A model generated the notes under the pieces. That model was not told where the DNA came from. It worked only from the letters and a program-made list of their open reading frames with translations, and made no database searches. From assembly GCA_919902495.1 (NCBI GenBank), contig CAKKRC010000038.1, positions 1-64,000 on the forward strand: a stretch of DNA of 64,000 nucleotides, in the 5' to 3' direction. Numbering within the stretch: the stretch's first letter is position 1; the number at the start of each line of letters is the position of its first letter. The stretch is from Nitrospiria bacterium. Its GTDB lineage: Bacteria > Nitrospirota > UBA9217. A program made the translations under genes and the position numbers. Of the stretch, positions 6,720-58,126 are shown in pieces.

Positions 6720-9700
6720 CGGATCGTTACCGGATCTTGTGCCTGATCTGCGCTGTTCTCGTGGCTGCGATCGGGCTTGTCGCTCTTCTCGGATGGGTCA
6801 TTGGCCGTCCTACCTTAGTCAGCCTGGGGTCGGGCATGATACCGGTGGCGCCGAGCACGGCGGTGATGTTCATGCTGTATGGCGCTGCTGTTTTCATCCG
6901 CACGCGTCTTCCGGACAGCCGGTCGGCATATTGGACCGGTCTTTCCATCACTGCCACGGGAGCGCTTGTGGCGGCGCTCCTGCTCAATTCGTCTCTTCGG
7001 GGTATACAACCTGATGCTGAACATCTCGGTTTTACGATCGTGAACAGGCCGGGTGAAACGCCGGTGGGGCATATGTCTCCCGTCACGGCATTCTGCTTCC
7101 TGTTATCGTCTCTATCGTATCTCCTGTCTCTGCCGTCGACGCGCGATCAACGCCTGGCGGCCAACCTCGCATGGTGGTTTGCCTGCTGCACGATCGCGAT
7201 CGGCTTTACGCTCATCCTGGCGTATCTCTACGGAACGCCGATGCTGTACGGCAGCACCTTCATTCCTCCGGCAGCGCTGACCAGTATGGCGTTCATGGCC
7301 CTTGGCACCGCACTGCTTGCTTTGGCAGCTCCCCATGCCTGGACGACCCGTTCGCATGTCGAATCCACCACACGCGCCTCGTACACCTTCGTGCTCGTGT
7401 TCGTCCTTTTGGCGGCGGGTATCGTGATCGCGGGATTCATGTATTTCCGGAGCTACGAATTACGCTACCGTACAGAGGTAGAACGTCAGCTATCCGCCAT
7501 CGCCGATATGAAAGTGGAAGGAATTGTTCATTGGCGAAAAGAACGGCTGGGGGATGCCGCGCTTTTTTATAAGAACGGGAATTTTTCCGGGTTGGTCCGT
7601 AGCTATTTGAAAAGACCGGAGGATGAAGTGACCGGGAGAAGGCTTCGGGCGTGGCTGCAGCATATTCAGAAAAGTTATCAATACGACCGGGTCTTCCTGC
7701 TCGATGGTATCGGCAGGGACCGAATGTCGGCGCCTGAAGCGCGGCGGCCGATATCACGCCATCTGCTACTGCGCGCCGCTGAGGTCCAGCGCACGAAACA
7801 GGTTGTCTTGGAGGATTTCTACCGGAATGAACATGATAAACGTGTCTATCTGGCGGTGCTGATCCCCATCCTCGACGATCGGGGCAATGGCCGCGCAGTG
7901 GGGACCCTTGCGTTGCGCATCGATCCCGAACAGTACCTCTATCCATCTCTCAACCGCTGGCCGACGCCGAGCAAGACCGCCGAAACCCTGCTCGTCCGGC
8001 GGGAAGGAAATGAGGCCCTTTTCCTGAATGAGCTCAGATATCAGAAGAACACGGCCCTCAGTCTGCGAAGCTCGCTGGAAAGAAAAGAACTTCCCGCTGC
8101 TCAGGCGGTCCTGGGCCGGAAGGGCATTATGGAGGGCAGAGACTACGCGGGTGTACCGGTGATCGCCGATGTGCGCGCTGTTCCCGGTTCTCCATGGTTT
8201 CTGGTCTCCCGCATGGATCTCTCTGAGGCTTATGAACCGATGAGAGAAAAACTGTGGATGATGGTCGCGCTGGTCGGCGCTCTGCTCATGGGCGCGGGCG
8301 GGGGCGTGGGGCTGGTCTGGCGGCGGCAGCTCGCACAGTTTTACCGGGTGAAATTTGAGACAACAGCCGAGCTGCGCGCTTCGGAGGTGCGTTACCGCAG
8401 ACTCTTCGAGACGGCCAAAGACGGCATTCTGATCCTCGACGCCGAAACGGGGATGGTGGTGGACGTGAATGCTTTCCTGATCGAGATGCTGGGTTTTTCG
8501 TACGAAGTATTCCTTGGTAAGAAGATATGGGAACTTGGATTCCTTAAGAATATCGTCGCCAACCAAGACAACTTCGCGGAATTGCAACAGAAGGAATACA
8601 TCCGTTATGAAGACATGCCGCTGGAAACTGCCGATGGCCGGCGGATCGAGGTGGAGTTCGTCAGCAATGTCTATCTGGTGAACCACCAAAAGGTCATCCA
8701 GTGCAATATCCGCGACATCACGGATCGCAAACTCGCGGAGAAGAAGCTGAGAGAAAGCGAAGAGTTCATTCGAATAGTTCTGGATAACCTACCTATCGGC
8801 ATAGCGGTGAATTCCGTTGACCCTGCCGTGCAATTTGATTTTATGAACGAAAACTTTGCCGGGTTCTACCGAACAACACGAGAGAAACTTGCCGAGAAGG
8901 ATACTTTCTGGGAGGCGGCGTACGAAGATCCTGACTTCAGAGAGAAAATTAAAAAAAGGGTGCTGGAGGATTGTGCCAGTGGAGACCCGGAGCGAATGTT
9001 GTGGGTAGACGTGCCGATCACCCGCAGGGGAGCAGAGACCACCTTCGTCAGCGCAAAGAACATCCCGCTTCGTGATAAACAGCTGATGATCTCAGCTGTG
9101 TGGGATGTCTCCGACCGCAAGCGGGCTGAGGAACGGATCAAAAGAATGAATGAGGAACTTGAGCAACGCGTCAAGGACCGCACTGCCCAGCTCGAAGTCG
9201 CTAATAAAGAGCTGGAGGCTTTTTCCTACTCCGTGTCCCATGACCTGCGCGCGCCGCTCAGGCATATGTCCGGATTCGTCGAACTGCTGAACAAGCGCAC
9301 GCAGTCACTTGACGATAAGAGCAGGCATTATCTGGATGTCATTTCGAAAGCAGCAACGCAGATGGGCAAACTCGTCGATGACCTGCTGTCGTTCTCCCGG
9401 ATGGGTCGGACCGAGATGATGAGGTCCTCGGTCAGGCTCCGGGACACGCTCAAAGAGGCCGTCGATGATATGAAAAGTGAGGTTGGGGAGAGAAACATCC
9501 GATGGGACATCAGAGACCTGCCGGAGATCTCCGGAGACCGGGCGATGCTCAAGCTTGTCTTTGTTAACCTGCTTTCCAATGCTCTCAAGTTCACGAGACA
9601 GCGTGAGCAGGCCGTGATCGAGGTCGGCTGCGCTCCGTTCGAAACAGCGGATGATGCCATCGTGTATGTGAAAGACAACGGCGTCGGGTTCGACATGAAG

Positions 9701-10648: not shown

Positions 10649-13600
10649 ATGAACAAGAAATTGAACATCCTCCATCTCGAGGACAACAGGAACGACGCCG
10701 AACTGATAAGGGAAACGCTGGCGGCCGGCGGAATAGCGTGCGATATCGTGCTGGTCGTTAACCGCGCTGATTTCACCGCTGCCCTGGGCCGTGAGCAGTT
10801 CGATCTCATCCTTGCCGACTATAATCTCCCGGCATTCGACGGTCTCTCCGCCCTGAAGATCGCATCGGCAAAACACTGTACAGTGCCATTCCTGTTCGTG
10901 ACAGGTACGATGGGCGAGGAGATCGCGGTCGAAAGCCTGAAACACGGGGCGACCGATTATGTCGTGAAGAGCCATCTCGGCCGGCTGGTCCCGTCCGTCA
11001 AGCGGGCGCTGCAGGAAAAGGAAGAGTGCCTCGCCCGGGAGAGCGCCGATGAGAACGTGCGGAAGCAGCAGACCGAGCTGGAGATCCAGAACAACCTGCT
11101 CCAATCGGCCCAGATCGAGATCGAGGAATCGCGGAACAAATATGCGGACCTCTACAACTTCGCCCCGGTAACCTATCTGACGCTGGATGAGAGCGGCTTG
11201 ATCCTCGAGGTGAACACACGCGGGGCGGAGCTGTTCGGCCGGGAACTCCCCCGACTGGTCGGCCGCACCCTGCCGGACCTCATCGATGCTCCGTCCCGGG
11301 ACACCGTAGCCGCCCACCTGGAGGCTGTTTTTTCCTCGTCGGCAAAGAAAGCCTGTGTAGTAAGGATATCCGGCACGGCCGGCCATGGCATCTATGTCTT
11401 GATGGAAAGCCTCGCGGCCCGGGACCGAAAAGGGACGCGCTTCTGCCTATCCGCCCTGACCAACATCACGGAGCGCATCCTGAGCGAGGAGCGGGCTGTG
11501 CTTGCGATCAGGGACTGGCAGACAACGTTCGATGCCATTGCCGATCCGGTCTGCCTGATCGACGCAGAGGGCTTTATCAAGCAGTGCAACCGGTCCATGT
11601 CGGCGTTCCTGCGGAAATCCTCGAGCCAGATCGTGGGCGAACAATGCTGGAGCGTCGTCTACGGCGTGAACGGCCCCCTGGATGCATCTCCGTTGGTGCA
11701 GGCGGGGAAGACCCTGCAACGGGAAAGCATGGAATTGTTCATGGACGGCAGGTGGTTCAACATCACGGTTGATCCGATCATCGACAGCAGCAGTACCGCG
11801 TCAGGGTTCGTGCATGTGATGAGCGATATCACCGAACGGAAGTCCATGGAAAAAGGGTTACGGGATTCGCTGGACAAGTTCAGGAGCGTGGCCGAGCAAT
11901 CGCTGGTCGGCATCTATATTGTCCAGGACGGCGTGTTCAAATACGTGAACAGGACCTTTGCTGCACTCTTCGGCTACTCCGCTGAGGAAGTGATAACCAC
12001 AAAATCGCCGCGGGACCTCACTGTCCCGGAGGATTGGGCCATTGTCGAGGAGCATCGCCGGAGACGGAAAGAGGGAATGACGTTGCCCGGCTCGTACGAG
12101 ATCAGGGGGATGGGAAAGGACGGCGGGGTCATTGCGATCGAGATATACGAGTCGCAGGCGCCCTTTGGGGGCCGTACAGCCAGCATTGGCGCGGTGCTGG
12201 ACGTTTCCCAGCGCAATAAGGCTGAGCAGGCCGTGCGGGACAGCGAAGGTAAACTGCAGGCCATAACCCGGACCGCGCCGGACGCCATCATCCTGCTCGA
12301 CGACGCGGGAAAGATATCTTACTGGAACGCGGCAGCCGAGAAGATGTTCGGCTACCGCGCCGGAGATGTCATGGGAGAGGACATATTGTTCATCATGCCC
12401 GAACGTTTCCGGAACGCGCATGCGCTGGCATTCAAGCGATTCACGGAGAGCGGCGAGGGGCCGAAACTTGGCACGACCATGGAAATGGCCGGGCTCAGAA
12501 GGGACGGGACGGAATTCCCGATCGAACTTTCCCTGGCCGGGTTCCTACTGAACAGCAAGCGCCATGCATCGGGGATCATCAGGGACATCAGCGAACGGAA
12601 GAAACTCGAAGGACAATTGCTTCACGCCCAGAAGATGGAGGCTATCGGGACGCTTGCGGGAGGCATCGCGCACGATTTTAACAATATTCTGAACGTGATA
12701 ATCGGGTACGGGTCCATGGTGCTGGATGGCATGGGAGCGGACCACCCGTCAAGGGACCGCATGCGCGAGGTGCTTTCCGCCGCGGACCGGGCGGCAAATC
12801 TTACGAAGCGATTGCTCATGTTCAGCAGAAAGTCGGACATTGACATTAGACCCGTCAAGGTGAACAGCATCGTTACCGACATGGAGAGATTCGTATCCCG
12901 GATCCTCGGCGAAGACATCGAGCTCACGATCAAACTTGAGGACCGGGAGACGATAGTAATAGCAGATGTCGGACAGATGGAACAGGTGCTGATGAATCTG
13001 GTCACCAACGCCAGGGACGCAATGCCGAAGGGCGGGTCTCTGACCATCACCACCGGATCGATGGAGATCGATGACGACTACATATTCGTTCATGGATACG
13101 GGACACCCGGGAAATACGCGTCCATTTCCGTTGCCGATACCGGGATCGGCATGAACACGGAAACGGTGGGCAAGATATTCGAACCCTTTTATACCACCAA
13201 GGGGGTGGGAGAGGGAACCGGGCTCGGGCTTTCGATCGCCTACGGGATCGTCAAACACCATAAAGGATTCATCCAGGTGTACAGCGAGGTCGGGAGAGGC
13301 AGCCTGTTCAAGATATTGCTGCCGCAGAGCGATAAGCCGGCCGGCGAACAGCTTGTCGCGGATATCTCCTCACCTCGGGGAGGGACCGAGACCATTCTCA
13401 TCGCGGAAGACGAAGCCTCGCTGAGAGATCTGATGAGGATCATCCTTGAGTCCTTCGGTTACACGGTGCTTGTCGCGGAGGACGGCGAGGAGGTGGTCAG
13501 GATGTTCTTGGAACACCGTGACCGAGTCCTACTCGTCATCCTTGATCTGATCATGCCGAAGAAGAGCGGAAAGGCCGCGGCCAATGAGATACAAAAGATA

Positions 13601-45615: not shown

Positions 45616-45645
45616 AGGTAAGGAGAAAGGCGTTATCAATTGACC

Positions 45646-46830
45646 ATGCCCGATAAAAAGGGTCACTTCGGCATCTACGGCGGCAAGTTCGCCCCCGAAA
45701 CGCTCATGCCGGCCCTGGATGAGCTGGAGAAAGCATATCTCGCTGCGAAGAAGGACAAGGCGTTCCAGGCCGAACTTGAATATTATTTCAAGGAATTCAT
45801 CGGCAGGCCTACGCCGCTCTATTTCGCGAAGCGGTTGACCGATCACCTGGGCGGGGCGAAGATCTACCTGAAGCGTGAGGACCTCTGCCACACGGGCGCC
45901 CACAAGATCAACAACTCCCTGGCCCAGGTCCTGCTCGCGAAGCGCATGGGCAAGACCCGCGTGGTCGCCGAGACCGGCGCGGGACAGCACGGCGTGGCGA
46001 CTGCCACTGCCGCGGCGATGTTCGGCCTCGATTGCGAGGTCTACATGGGCACCGACGACGTGGCGCGCCAGTCCCTGAACGTGTTCCGCATGAAGCTCCT
46101 CGGGACGATCGTCCGGCCCGTTGACAGCGGCAGCAAGACCCTGAAGGACGCCATCAACGAGGCCATGCGCGACTGGATCACGAACGTCGCGAGCACCCAT
46201 TACGTTCTCGGCACGGTCTACGGCCCCCATCCCTTCCCCATGATGGTGCGGGACTTTCAGTCCGTCATCGGACGGGAGGCGAAGAAGCAGATCATGAAGA
46301 TGGAAGGCGGGCTGCCGGACTGCCTCGTCGCCTGCGTGGGCGGCGGTTCGAACGCCATGGGGCTGTTCACCGAGTTCCTCGATGACGCGTCCGTCAAGAT
46401 GTACGGGATCGAGGCGGGAGGGCTCGGCATCGAGCGGGGCAAGCACGCTGCGCGGTTCGCCGGCGGGTCCCTCGGCGTGCTGCAGGGCTGCAAGACCTTC
46501 GTGCTCCAGGACGATGACGGCCAGATCGAGATGACCCACTCGGTCTCAGCGGGACTTGATTACGCCGCGGTCGGCCCTGAACACGCGTTCTACCACGATA
46601 CGGGACGCATCGAATACACCTACGCCATCGACGAAGAGGCCATGGAGGCCTTTGATCTCCTGTCCCGCCTCGAAGGCATCATTCCGGCCCTTGAGAGCGC
46701 CCACGCCGTTGCGTACTGCCTGAAACTCGCGCCGACGCTCGGCAAGGACAAGGTGATCATCTGCAACCTCTCCGGCCGCGGCGACAAGGACGTGATGCAG
46801 GTGGCGAAGATCAAGGGCGTGGAACTGTAG
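45646..46830 (+). CDS. trpB: Tryptophan synthase beta subunit
   Basis: The protein has 394 residues (ATG 45646; an in-frame TTG is at 45640). The PLP lysine lies in [13 protein letters not shown], and GGGSNAMG binds phosphate; the gene is complete. The last 55 bp (46773-46827) are repeated at 47368-47422 beyond a toxin-antitoxin pair. In the second copy the frame continues for nine residues after GVEL, so the present C-terminus probably replaced an older, slightly longer one. Confidence 0.96.
46773..46827 (+). repeat. trpB 3'-end direct repeat, live copy
   Basis: Fifty-five bases encoding [18 protein letters not shown], identical to 47368-47422 except one base (A at 46824, G at 47419). It is followed directly by TAG and the BrnT ribosome binding site. 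Confidence 0.95.
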
Positions 46831-46846: not shown

Positions 46847-47137
46847 GTGCCGATAGTCATTAAAGACATTATATGGCTGGAAACCATCGTTGAAAAACTT
46901 GCCTGGAAGCACCGGATCGTTCCACATGAGGTTGAGGATGTGTTGTCGGGTAAATGTCGTATTTTCAAACGGGAGAGCGGCGATGTTGAAGGGGAACATC
47001 TTTACAATGCGCTTGGGAGAACAGAAGATGGGCGTTATCTGTCGGTTTTTTTCATCAGGAAGCTGACCGATAAGGCGCTTATCGTAACAGCACGGGACAT
47101 GAATGACCGTGAGCGGAGGAAATATGAAAAAAAGTAA
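46847..47137 (+). CDS. BrnT-like (DUF497) toxin
   Basis: The protein has 96 residues with a GTG start after a good AGGAG site, 16 bases beyond the trpB stop. The C-terminal TARDMNDRERRKYEK is typical of BrnT, a RelE-like ribosome-associated RNase fold, and the core NALGRTEDGRYLSVFF fits. It overlaps the next gene by 14 bp, as toxin-first BrnTA pairs often do. It sits in a cassette bounded by trpB tail repeats. Confidence 0.82.
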   Translation: MPIVIKDIIWLETIVEKLAWKHRIVPHEVEDVLSGKCRIFKRESGDVEGEHLYNALGRTEDGRYLSVFFIRKLTDKALIVTARDMNDRERRKYEKK

Positions 47138-47363
47138 ATCAAAAAGCATGACGATCCTGGAAGCGAGCGATTATTTTGATGAACACGATCTGTTCGAACG
47201 TGAAGAAGCGGTGGAAGTTAAAAACATAAAGTTCGACGTATCTAAAAAACAGTACGTTGGCGTGGATTCGGCGCTGTTTGAGAAAATAAGGAGCAAAGCG
47301 AAGAAACTTCATATGAACGAGGATGCATTGATCAATGCATGGTTGAAAGAAAAAGCCGGATGA
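47124..47363 (+). CDS. CopG/BrnA-like antitoxin
   Basis: The protein has 79 residues from the ATG at 47124 (GGAGG site). The second half (YVGVDSALFEKIRSKAKKL then NEDALINAWLKEK) looks like a ribbon-helix-helix DNA-binding domain, and the first half would bind the toxin. Pairing with BrnT and the overlap support an antitoxin and autorepressor role. Confidence 0.8.
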   Translation: MKKSKSKSMTILEASDYFDEHDLFEREEAVEVKNIKFDVSKKQYVGVDSALFEKIRSKAKKLHMNEDALINAWLKEKAG

Positions 47364-47367
47364 CGCG

Positions 47368-47455
47368 CGGCCGCGGCGACAAGGACGTGATGCAGGTGGC
47401 GAAGATCAAGGGCGTGGAGCTGGAAGACGTGCGGCATGGCGGGAGCGGGCGATGA
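47368..47455 (+). pseudogene. Displaced old 3' end of trpB
   Basis: Positions 47368-47422 duplicate the last 55 bp of trpB. The frame then runs on through EDVRHGGSGR to TGA at 47453-47455, which is probably the original trpB end. It has no start of its own. The following 100 bp up to the caspase gene hold nothing recognisable. Confidence 0.9.
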
Positions 47456-47561
47456 CGGGGAAAGATTTCATGATGAATGATCAATGCGCTGTCCCTAAGA
47501 TGGTTGCAGGAGAATAAACCCCTGCGATAGACCGAGCCGGTAGGATTTCAGGAGATGCATT

Positions 47562-48953
47562 ATGAAAAGAATATCGGGATTGATCTTATTGTTTCCGATG
47601 CTTATTTTGTTGGCTGGATGCGGGACCGCATTGACACGGGCTGCAAGAGATGGAGACATCGCTGCCATCCAGAAACTGCTCGATCAGGGGGCAAATATAA
47701 ATGAAAACGCTATAGTAGGAGGTAGTATGAATGGATCGCTTTTAAGCCAAGCTGCATACTACTGCCGTATTGAGGCGATAAAGTATTTAATACATAAAGG
47801 AGCTGATATAAATAATGCAACAGGTTGGACAGATTATGGTGCTAGTGGTGGAGGGTTGAGACCTTTGCATATGGCTGCAAGATCTGGTTGCACAGAGGCA
47901 ATAAAACTCTTGCTCGATGCAGGCGCTGACATTGATGTAAGAGCAAATGAGCTCTTCGGGACTGCTCTGGCAATAGCCGCATATCATGGTAATATTAAGA
48001 GCGTAAAATATTTACTTGAAAGAGGGGCTGACGTTGATGATGCAAGCCAAGTTCTTGAAGCGCTTGACGGACTGAGAGAGAGAGGTGGTAAAGAAGGTCT
48101 GGCATTGCTCCAGAAGTTTGAAAAGCAGAAAATTGCGGTCCGGCTTCCTGAAAATACACCTTCTTCCATTGTTGCCAAATCCGATGTTGACGAACTTCCT
48201 GCAATAAAAGCAAAACTAAATAAAAACTCCTACGCTATCGTTATCGGCATTGAGAATTATCGCCAGAAACTTCCAAAGGCTGATTATGCGGTGGCTGATG
48301 CAAAGACAATGACAGAATATCTCACAAAGGTGATGGGCTATCCTGATGAGAATGTTATTGCACTCACGAACGACCGCGCGTCCTTGACGGATTTTATAAA
48401 ATACTTTGAAAAGTGGCTGCCGAACAATGTTGCGAAAGATAGTTCCGTCTTTATCTATTTCTCAGGCCACGGAGCCCCAAATCCCAAGACCGGTGACGCC
48501 TACTTGGTCCCTTATGATGGAGATCCATCTTTTATAGACGAGACCGGATATTCCCTCAAGCGGATGTATGATGCTCTCGGCAAAATGCCTGCTAAGGAAG
48601 TGATCATTGCGCTCGATTCCTGCTTCTCCGGTGCCGGCGGCAGGTCGGTGATCGCCAAGGGAGCACGACCCATCGTCCTGTCGACCGAGAATCCCGCGAT
48701 GCTGAGCAAGAACATGACCGTGCTGTCAGCGTCAGCAAGCGATCAGATCAGTTCCACGTACGACGAGAAGGGGCACGGACTATTCACCTACTTCATGTTG
48801 AAGGGCATCAAGAACGAGGACGTGGTGAAGCAGGACGGCTCGATCGATATCGCATCGCTATTCGATTACATAAAGCCGCAGGTGTCGAGCATCGCCCGGA
48901 AGAAATACAACAACGAGCAGACGCCGCAACTGGTTGGGGCGCAGAAGAACTGA
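47562..48953 (+). CDS. Ankyrin-caspase (peptidase C14) lipoprotein
   Basis: The protein has 463 residues: a lipoprotein signal (LILLAGC), three to four ankyrin repeats (about 23-165), a linker and a C14 caspase-like domain (about 220-460) with the catalytic His in YFSGHGAPN and Cys in LDSCFSGAG. It would be an envelope-anchored metacaspase-like protease with a protein-binding domain. The 5' half is more AT-rich than the trp genes around it, hinting at transfer. It lies on the coding strand between trpB and trpA, so it is likely read with them. Confidence 0.85.
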   Translation: MKRISGLILLFPMLILLAGCGTALTRAARDGDIAAIQKLLDQGANINENAIVGGSMNGSLLSQAAYYCRIEAIKYLIHKGADINNATGWTDYGASGGGLRPLHMAARSGCTEAIKLLLDAGADIDVRANELFGTALAIAAYHGNIKSVKYLLERGADVDDASQVLEALDGLRERGGKEGLALLQKFEKQKIAVRLPENTPSSIVAKSDVDELPAIKAKLNKNSYAIVIGIENYRQKLPKADYAVADAKTMTEYLTKVMGYPDENVIALTNDRASLTDFIKYFEKWLPNNVAKDSSVFIYFSGHGAPNPKTGDAYLVPYDGDPSFIDETGYSLKRMYDALGKMPAKEVIIALDSCFSGAGGRSVIAKGARPIVLSTENPAMLSKNMTVLSASASDQISSTYDEKGHGLFTYFMLKGIKNEDVVKQDGSIDIASLFDYIKPQVSSIARKKYNNEQTPQLVGAQKN

Positions 48954-48981: not shown

Positions 48982-49794
48982 ATGTCACGCATCAAGAACA
49001 CCTTTAACCGGCTGAAGAAGAAGAACGAGAAGGCGCTGATCCCCTATATCATGGCGGGGGACCCCGATCTCGCCACGACGAAGTCGATCATCCTCGCGAT
49101 GGAAAAGGCGGGCTGTGATATAATCGAGCTGGGCGCGCCGTTCTCCGATCCGCTGGCGGACGGCCCCACGATCCAGAAGGCAGCTCTCCGCTCGCTCACG
49201 CACCACACGAGCATCAAGGACGTGCTCGGGCTCGTGGCCGATGTCAGGAAAGAAAGCAAGATACCGCTCATCATTATGACCTACTACAACCTCATTTTCC
49301 ATTACGGAGAGGAGCGGTTCGTGAACGACGCGGTGGCCGCGGGCCTGGACGGCGTCATCCTGCCGGACCTCCCCCCCGAGGAGGCTGGTGCGCTCATCGC
49401 CCTGGCGAAGCAGGCGGGGCTCGATACGATCTTCCTGCTGGCGCCCACGAGCACCGACGACCGGATCAAGGCGGTCAGCAAGGTATCCCAGGGCTTCATC
49501 TACTATGTTTCGCTCACCGGCGTGACCGGTTCCCACCTCGGCCTCCAACAGGCGGCCATCAAGGATTCCCTCGCCCGGATCAAGGCGCAGACGGACAAGC
49601 CCGTCGCCGTGGGATTCGGCATCGCGACGGCGGACCAGGCGGCGCAGGTGGCGGGGTCGGGCGCTGACGGGGTGATCGTGGGGAGCGCCCTGGTGAAGGT
49701 GATCGAGGAGAACAGCGGTTCACCGGACCTGGTGGCAAAGGCGGCCGCGTTCGTGAAGGCCCTGAAGCAGGGCGTCCTTACGGTCACGCAGTAA
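48982..49794 (+). CDS. trpA: Tryptophan synthase alpha subunit
   Basis: The protein has 270 residues from ATG 48982 (GAGG site). The catalytic Glu is in IIELGAPFSDPLADGPTIQ and Asp in GVILPDLPPEE; GVTG, VGFGIATADQA and VIVGSALV bind phosphate. It is separated from trpB by 2.1 kb of inserted toxin-antitoxin and caspase genes although the two subunits act as one complex. Confidence 0.96.
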   Translation: MSRIKNTFNRLKKKNEKALIPYIMAGDPDLATTKSIILAMEKAGCDIIELGAPFSDPLADGPTIQKAALRSLTHHTSIKDVLGLVADVRKESKIPLIIMTYYNLIFHYGEERFVNDAVAAGLDGVILPDLPPEEAGALIALAKQAGLDTIFLLAPTSTDDRIKAVSKVSQGFIYYVSLTGVTGSHLGLQQAAIKDSLARIKAQTDKPVAVGFGIATADQAAQVAGSGADGVIVGSALVKVIEENSGSPDLVAKAAAFVKALKQGVLTVTQ

Positions 49795-57531: not shown

Positions 57532-57744
57532 ATGAAGGCAGTGAGCAGCCTGAAAATAGACAAATCTTTTGTCACCGTTTCCCGGCTGACCGATATTCCG
57601 GATGATAAAACATACTGGCTTTCTAAAACCCCCTACGAGCGAATGCAGGCAGTCGACACCCTCCGGCGACTCAATTATGGCGAACGTCAATCTACCGCCC
57701 GACTTCAAAGAATTCTTGAGATTACTCAACGCGAATCGCGTTGA
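57532..57744 (+). CDS. Small antitoxin-like partner of nucleotidyltransferase
   Basis: The protein has 70 residues with the pattern YWLSKTPYERMQAVDTLRRL then RLQRILEIT, as seen in small proteins encoded just before AbiEii/MNT-like nucleotidyltransferases. It overlaps the next gene by 68 bp. An antitoxin role is inferred from this pairing. A ribosome binding site (GGGAGGAA) precedes the ATG. Confidence 0.7.
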   Translation: MKAVSSLKIDKSFVTVSRLTDIPDDKTYWLSKTPYERMQAVDTLRRLNYGERQSTARLQRILEITQRESR

Positions 57745-58126
57745 GTATCTGCTCATCGGCGGCTACGCGGTGGCCTATCATGGCTACCCACGCGCAACCG
57801 CCGACATGGATCTCTGGATCGCCTTACACCCCCGCAACGCAGAGACAGTTGTTTCCGTTCTAAAGAAATTCGGCTTCAACACTCCCCAGCTTACTCCAGG
57901 CCTGTTTATGCAGGAAGATCAGATCATTCGGATGGGTTTGCCGCCGGTCCGGATCGGGATAGCGACGTCGATCTCCGGCGTAAACTTCGATGAGTGCTGG
58001 TCCGCGCGGATCGTCGATGTCCTGGATGATGTGGAAGTCAATGTCATCAGTCTCGACGATCTCAAACGAAATAAAAAGTCCGCGGGACGGCACAAGGACC
58101 TTGACGACCTGGAGAACTTGCCGTAA
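57677..58126 (+). CDS. MNT/AbiEii-like nucleotidyltransferase (putative toxin)
   Basis: The protein has 149 residues from ATG 57677. The nucleotidyltransferase core LLIGGYAVAYHGYPRATADM with the following DLW holds the catalytic Asp pair. It is a small stand-alone enzyme of the toxin-antitoxin type that probably modifies tRNA or protein. With the preceding gene it forms a pair placed between the DUF362 and FeS genes. No flanking tail repeat was found for this pair. Confidence 0.78.
   Translation: MANVNLPPDFKEFLRLLNANRVEYLLIGGYAVAYHGYPRATADMDLWIALHPRNAETVVSVLKKFGFNTPQLTPGLFMQEDQIIRMGLPPVRIGIATSISGVNFDECWSARIVDVLDDVEVNVISLDDLKRNKKSAGRHKDLDDLENLP

Follow-up and report, generated by a model that had tools for sequence, protein, structure and literature searches.

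A predicted ankyrin-caspase lipoprotein gene in a trpB-trpA insertion hotspot of a Nitrospiria bacterium, beside a toxin-antitoxin-like pair bounded by gene-end repeats

The window analyzed here is a 64,000-nt stretch (positions 1 to 64,000, forward strand) of contig CAKKRC010000038.1 from a Nitrospiria bacterium (assembly GCA_919902495.1). In it, a gene for a caspase-like protein with ankyrin repeats lies between the two tryptophan synthase genes, trpB upstream and trpA downstream, where the first-pass annotation had placed it. The features of the locus are as follows:

45640..46830, + strand: trpB, tryptophan synthase beta chain (PF00291, 8.5e-42; 87-96% identity to trpB of full-length relatives)
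46773..46827, + strand: trpB 3' end, proximal copy of a 55-nt repeat
46847..47137, + strand: BrnT-like toxin candidate (PF04365, 30.6 bits, below the cut-off of 34.5)
47127..47363, + strand: CopG/BrnA-like antitoxin candidate (PF12441, 21.4 bits, below the cut-off of 28; weak BrnA model match)
47368..47422, + strand: trpB 3' end, distal copy of the repeat (54/55 nt identical, 98%)
47562..48953, + strand: predicted ankyrin-caspase lipoprotein gene (463 aa, open from ATG to stop)
47562..47621, + strand: predicted signal peptide and lipobox (LAGC, Cys20), from sequence and Cys20 conservation
47625..48047, + strand: putative ankyrin-repeat sensor module, residues ~22-162 (profile match)
48231..48935, + strand: caspase domain, residues 224-458 (profile match, dyad conservation)
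48342..48440, no strand: putative recombination breakpoint zone (best estimate 48432, residue 290)
48468-48470 and 48621-48623, + strand: codons of the dyad residues His303 and Cys354
48982..49794, + strand: trpA, tryptophan synthase alpha chain (PF00290, 7.6e-93)

The two small genes behind trpB overlap each other, and by profile similarity they resemble a divergent BrnT toxin paired with a CopG/BrnA antitoxin. Because neither protein reaches its Pfam cut-off for a BrnT/BrnA type II toxin-antitoxin (TA) system, the pair at 46847-47363 is named BrnT/CopG-like only. Of the TA cassette that had been reported ahead of the caspase, the overlapping small pair stands and its class is relaxed to TA-like. 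The caspase stop codon is 28 nt from trpA. Given this tight spacing and that between trpB and the BrnT-like gene, and with no promoter or terminator signals beyond chance around trpB-BrnT-caspase-trpA, the caspase gene is probably co-transcribed with the trp genes. No Rfam element reached gathering score in the window, and no relevant literature on a caspase within a trp operon was found. Positions 57701-57880 of the window have a weak match (35%) to the nucleotidyltransferase encoded in the trp slots of relatives.

Prokaryotic metacaspases and orthocaspases are abundant in Nitrospirae, and surveyed orthocaspases have a C14 domain with a His-Cys dyad, varied partner domains, and frequent operon location (PMC3501461). 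The 463-aa protein likewise has a Peptidase_C14 domain (PF00656, 63.8 bits against a cut-off of 21.4) and this dyad, with no variation at His303 or Cys354 in 106 and in 90 homologues. That survey mentions neither ankyrin nor DUF4384 in its main text, and it describes neither a lipoprotein family with exchangeable sensors nor a trp-operon slot. Ahead of the caspase domain are an ankyrin match (Ank, PF12796, 9e-22) and a lipoprotein-type N-terminus (MKRISGLILLFPMLILLAGC) with the lipobox LAGC, whose Cys20 is at least 90% conserved in 36 relatives. The annotation had described a lipid-anchored caspase-like protein with ankyrin repeats and had proposed a check of its signal peptide and lipidation; the description holds for a predicted lipoprotein, and the sequence side of the check, signal peptide and lipobox, came out in its favor. 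Among homologous ORFs, a crude lipobox pattern was matched in 89 of 130, partly because start sites are uncertain. The AF2 model (mean pLDDT 81, pTM 0.57; pLDDT <50 at residues 355-376) contains an ankyrin domain and a caspase domain. In Foldseek searches, the ankyrin domain matched designed ankyrins, and the nearest solved folds in the PDB for the caspase domain were those of the MALT1 paracaspase (3v4o, TMt 0.71) and Geobacter GSU0716 (3bij, TMt 0.62), although identity to these is 17-19%. As modeled, the protein has a caspase fold. Comparison with relatives gave a dN well below dS, as in a gene under purifying constraint.

The order to which the window belongs is represented by one family with 14 genomes, and the trpB-trpA junction was measured in 13. 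Spacing is 866-6009 nt in seven of the 13 and 47-153 nt in five; G006 has a sequencing gap. All other trp junctions surveyed (trpC-trpF, trpF-trpB, and trpA-next gene) are 345 nt or shorter (p ~3e-5). Among the trp junctions of this order, trpB-trpA is a hotspot for insertion. Junctions without an insert, each with one trpB end (G007-G009, G012, and G013), belong to other genera and not to near-identical strains. Six other genomes carry related slots, and the contents vary, with differing TA pairs, one to three caspases, and a DUF4384 protein:

Window: BrnT/CopG-like pair, then the ankyrin-caspase; DUF4384 absent
G001 (same genus as the window): small ORF, DUF4160 and DUF2442, then a truncated DUF4384 gene
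G003: nucleotidyltransferase and 61-aa protein, two ankyrin-caspases, one DUF2846-caspase, FlgT_N-DUF4384 protein
G010: nucleotidyltransferase/small-protein kind of pair, one caspase, DUF4384
G004: nucleotidyltransferase/small-protein pair, apparent remnants of a DUF5615 gene and of the 3' end of a caspase gene (NEQTPQLIEAKK), DUF4384
G005: small protein, caspase with a different N-terminus, DUF4384, DUF5615, DUF433
G011: nucleotidyltransferase/small-protein-type TA-like pair, no caspase

Since caspases recur in this slot in three further genera of the order, the arrangement in the window is neither a chance reading frame nor a one-off. The TA type beside similar caspases changes, being BrnT-like, DUF4160/DUF2442, or nucleotidyltransferase. 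The slot caspase appears to be dispensable, because it has been lost from the slot in some relatives (G001 and G004). The suggestion of a growing island of growth-control genes is supported by this hotspot, in which TA pairs and caspases differ by genus, and from the TA enrichment near homologues described below. One ancient, vertically inherited insertion is unsupported because the caspases of the trp slot fall into more than one clade in the caspase tree, where starred branches force at least two changes; bootstrap values of this tree are not fully settled, and chimeric genes blur it. The remnants in the G004 slot (L048:8432-8616) look like scars, as if a caspase had been deleted. In a deltaproteobacterial MAG, a different signal-bearing ORF of 167 aa lies between trpB and trpA (L133:12529-13032), with a caspase ~4 kb upstream of the trp genes.

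Restriction-modification genes can insert into operons (PMC4615327), and insertion with long, variable target duplications is described for such systems in PMC3031569 and PMC2654758, citing Nobusato 2000. In the window, the insert is bounded by duplicated host sequence, the two 55-nt copies of the trpB 3' end bracketing the TA-like pair. Copies of the trpB 3' end (47-63 nt) are also present in the slots of G001, G003, G005, and G010, the G005 copy being less sure as it spans a scaffold gap. A 29-nt core of the repeat (at most two mismatches) occurs twice per genome in these four and in the window genome, at the trp locus only, and the trpB end differs too little between genera for the repeat to be dated by its proximal versus distal copy.

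At other TA loci, the repeats are also host gene ends, differing from locus to locus:

L167: 3' end of a caspase gene, present three times (8458-8518, 9265-9325, and 11405-11459), bracketing an RHH/PIN pair
L106: end copies of a TPR lipoprotein gene, bounding a DUF433/DUF5615 pair
L202 (1070-1234 and 1846-2011; G005, contig C195): purL tail copy, 166 nt, bounding a BrnT pair
L239 (1375-1551 and 2323-2498; G005, contig C195): purL head copy, 177 nt, bounding a BrnT pair
L223: end copy of a DUF2339 gene
L253: end copy of hisB
L252: end copy of a pyridine-nucleotide reductase gene
L232: end copy of a 568-aa gene
L246: end copy of a siroheme-synthesis-type gene; TA RelE-like by reading

Tail copies keep the frame of the host gene as far as its end or nearly so. 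Of 70 BrnT loci, 12 are flanked by direct repeats of 40-400 nt, compared with 1 of 38 control stretches taken from many of the same genomes (p 0.02). By analogy, the gene-end copies resemble the products of insertion with long target duplication. As with restriction-modification systems, a small addiction-type gene set is associated with a long, variable duplication of host sequence; unlike there, TA-like pairs are the cargo here, and what is duplicated is often the end of a neighboring gene, which stays intact. The repeats may have arisen either by one mechanism or through homology-assisted illegitimate recombination, with selection retaining the events that left the host gene intact. Two loci have further elements near the repeats. 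L167 has a broken caspase fused to HEPN-like sequence beside its RHH/PIN pair, and in G001 (contig C76, L216:315-2014) a BrnT pair and a REP-type-transposase-like ORF lie between the copies of a 49-nt direct repeat.

The caspase gene of the window appears to be a chimera, its front sensor half apparently swapped in from a distant bacterium. It was compared with L111, which belongs to a caspase array in another Nitrospirota MAG: DNA identity is ~92% across residues 20-290 and falls to 65% beyond them, and the best-placed break, at residue 290 (nt 48432), gains 76.7 lnL units. The 3' part has its closest matches (up to 82%) among caspases in the trp slots of the same family. GC content is 0.44 in the TA-like pair and in the ankyrin part, 0.45 in the first half of the caspase domain, and 0.56 in the second half, compared with 0.63-0.64 in trpB and trpA. 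This break in identity and GC inside the caspase domain is as expected if recombination replaced the sensor together with the first half of the domain. Similarly, L093 (Desulfobacterales) shares 89-91% identity with the ankyrin module of the window gene but only 58% with its caspase domain. Across all homologues, 26 inter-locus segment matches of at least 85% cover only part of the gene; several are sensor-only and several caspase-only, ending near the domain border. This sharing suggests that sensor and executioner have been exchanged as modules across phyla, and the caspase tree agrees with such exchange, as phyla are interleaved and the trp-slot copies do not group together. If true, a readily swapped sensor suggests recognition of something variable.

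Homologues of the caspase elsewhere were compared at 78 loci in MAGs labelled Nitrospirota, Deltaproteobacteria and related groups, Nitrospinota, Elusimicrobiota, and one Nitrosomonadales; two of the 78 are trp slots of relatives again. Two or more caspases are present at 33 of these loci, a DUF4384 gene lies at most 1 kb downstream at 25, and a nucleotidyltransferase/small-protein pair lies at most 600 nt away at 11. TA-type families (PIN, nucleotidyltransferase, HEPN, and RHH) account for at least 19 of 150 short neighbors within 1 kb of homologous caspases and ~4 of 150 at 3.5 kb or more (p ~0.001; counts were summed by family, and some proteins were possibly counted twice). A few neighbors are DegP-like (trypsin plus PDZ). 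The N-terminal modules vary among relatives while the caspase domain stays conserved: 46 of 90 relatives have ankyrin, and the rest have DUF2846, PDZ, S41, laminin-G, DsbA/thioredoxin, PEGA, or Sel1. The cytoplasm is the more familiar setting for ankyrin repeats. A place outside the cytoplasm fits the predicted lipoprotein because several of the modules in these 90 relatives are of extracytoplasmic type. Such modules and the few DegP-like neighbors do not prove the link to envelope stress that the first-pass annotation had also raised.

Taken at about even confidence, the ankyrin-caspase may be a sensor-triggered cysteine protease of the cell envelope, of orthocaspase type, with a recombined sensor and a place in a TA-associated trp hotspot. 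The lipidated protein, expressed with trpB and trpA, would face the periplasm; its variable N-terminal module would bind a ligand or partner, this binding would activate the caspase domain, and the activated domain would cleave an envelope substrate. The FlgT_N/DUF4384 protein encoded beside many relatives, and missing from the slot of the window genome, is a candidate partner or substrate. TA pairs may make deletions costly, so that the slot persists. If this is true, caspase-type proteases in these bacteria include exported receptors, beyond cytoplasmic enzymes.

Mobile cargo offers a rival account, which we consider doubtful but a serious contender. Caspase and TA genes would be unrelated passengers in a permissive junction, the TA pair spreading through insertion that duplicates a gene end and the caspase being functionally tied neither to it nor to tryptophan metabolism. 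The differing contents of the slot between genera, its decay in G001 and G004, the TA-like pair without a caspase in G011, and the existence of TA pairs with gene-end repeats far from caspases all argue for this account, whereas the enrichment of TA families beside lipoprotein caspases at many unrelated sites argues against it. Purifying constraint counters useless cargo, but not independence of the caspase from the TA pair. A direct tie to the TA pair would exist if the caspase cleaved the neighboring antitoxin and so freed the toxin to halt growth. In Microcystis aeruginosa, the orthocaspase MaOC1 is encoded next to a ParE/ParD-like TA module fenced by repeats and cleaves its antitoxin (PMC7935541). 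The window is alike in having a caspase-type protease gene adjacent to a small TA-like pair with flanking direct repeats (46773-46827 and 47368-47422). However, the MaOC1 TA pair is downstream and the pair here upstream of the caspase, and the MaOC1 repeats are 152 bp and lie beside the MaOC1 stop codon, whereas the repeat here is the trpB 3' end. The window caspase also differs in its export and lipidation signals, which predict a protease outside the cytoplasm, apart from the antitoxin; TA type, moreover, varies freely beside similar caspases. Such a switch is therefore unlikely.

Some bacterial caspase-like proteases function in defence, and the PADLOC general caspase model matches the protein. 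An anti-phage or abortive-infection effector within a small defence island is nevertheless very unlikely, as export is predicted and the curated EACC1-associated caspase model (NF047832) was not reached (82 versus 140 bits). Among 121 larger neighbors of homologues at 70-odd loci, PADLOC matches were only scattered, and a defence island was rejected on neighbor content. The link to abortive defence raised in the first-pass annotation thus finds no backing, homologues being enriched beside TA genes and not defence genes. Least probable of all is an artefact of assembly or contamination, with low-GC DNA from elsewhere spliced into the trp contig. The genome is a 110-contig draft, and 46847-48432 is lower in GC than its flanks, but both ends of the stretch join the host's own trp genes in correct order, and six other genomes have related slot contents.

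Beyond the envelope-protease reading of this one gene, we tentatively propose that lipoprotein caspases form a polymorphic envelope system built around a conserved executioner domain, with sensors exchanged as cassettes across phyla and slots founded and held by end-duplicating TA pairs. A TA insertion that duplicates the end of its neighbor would leave the host gene intact and the slot refillable, and the gene-end duplications suggest a route by which small TA pairs could enter essential operons without breakage. The trpB-trpA slot is a natural experiment, since among several genera it is seen empty, with TA genes only, with both TA and caspase genes, and decayed. Two features deserve a specialist's attention: the exchange of sensors between phyla in lipoprotein caspases, and the host gene-end duplicates that bound TA pairs.

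A nucleotidyltransferase (DUF6036/AbiEii-like) with a ~60-aa partner recurs beside lipoprotein caspases. The partner had no family match in profile searches, and the two genes are a candidate for an unnamed TA pair. They are found at L045:7136-7814, L048:7772-8432, L050, and L082, and at the caspase loci L090, L104, L118, L125, L129, and L167.
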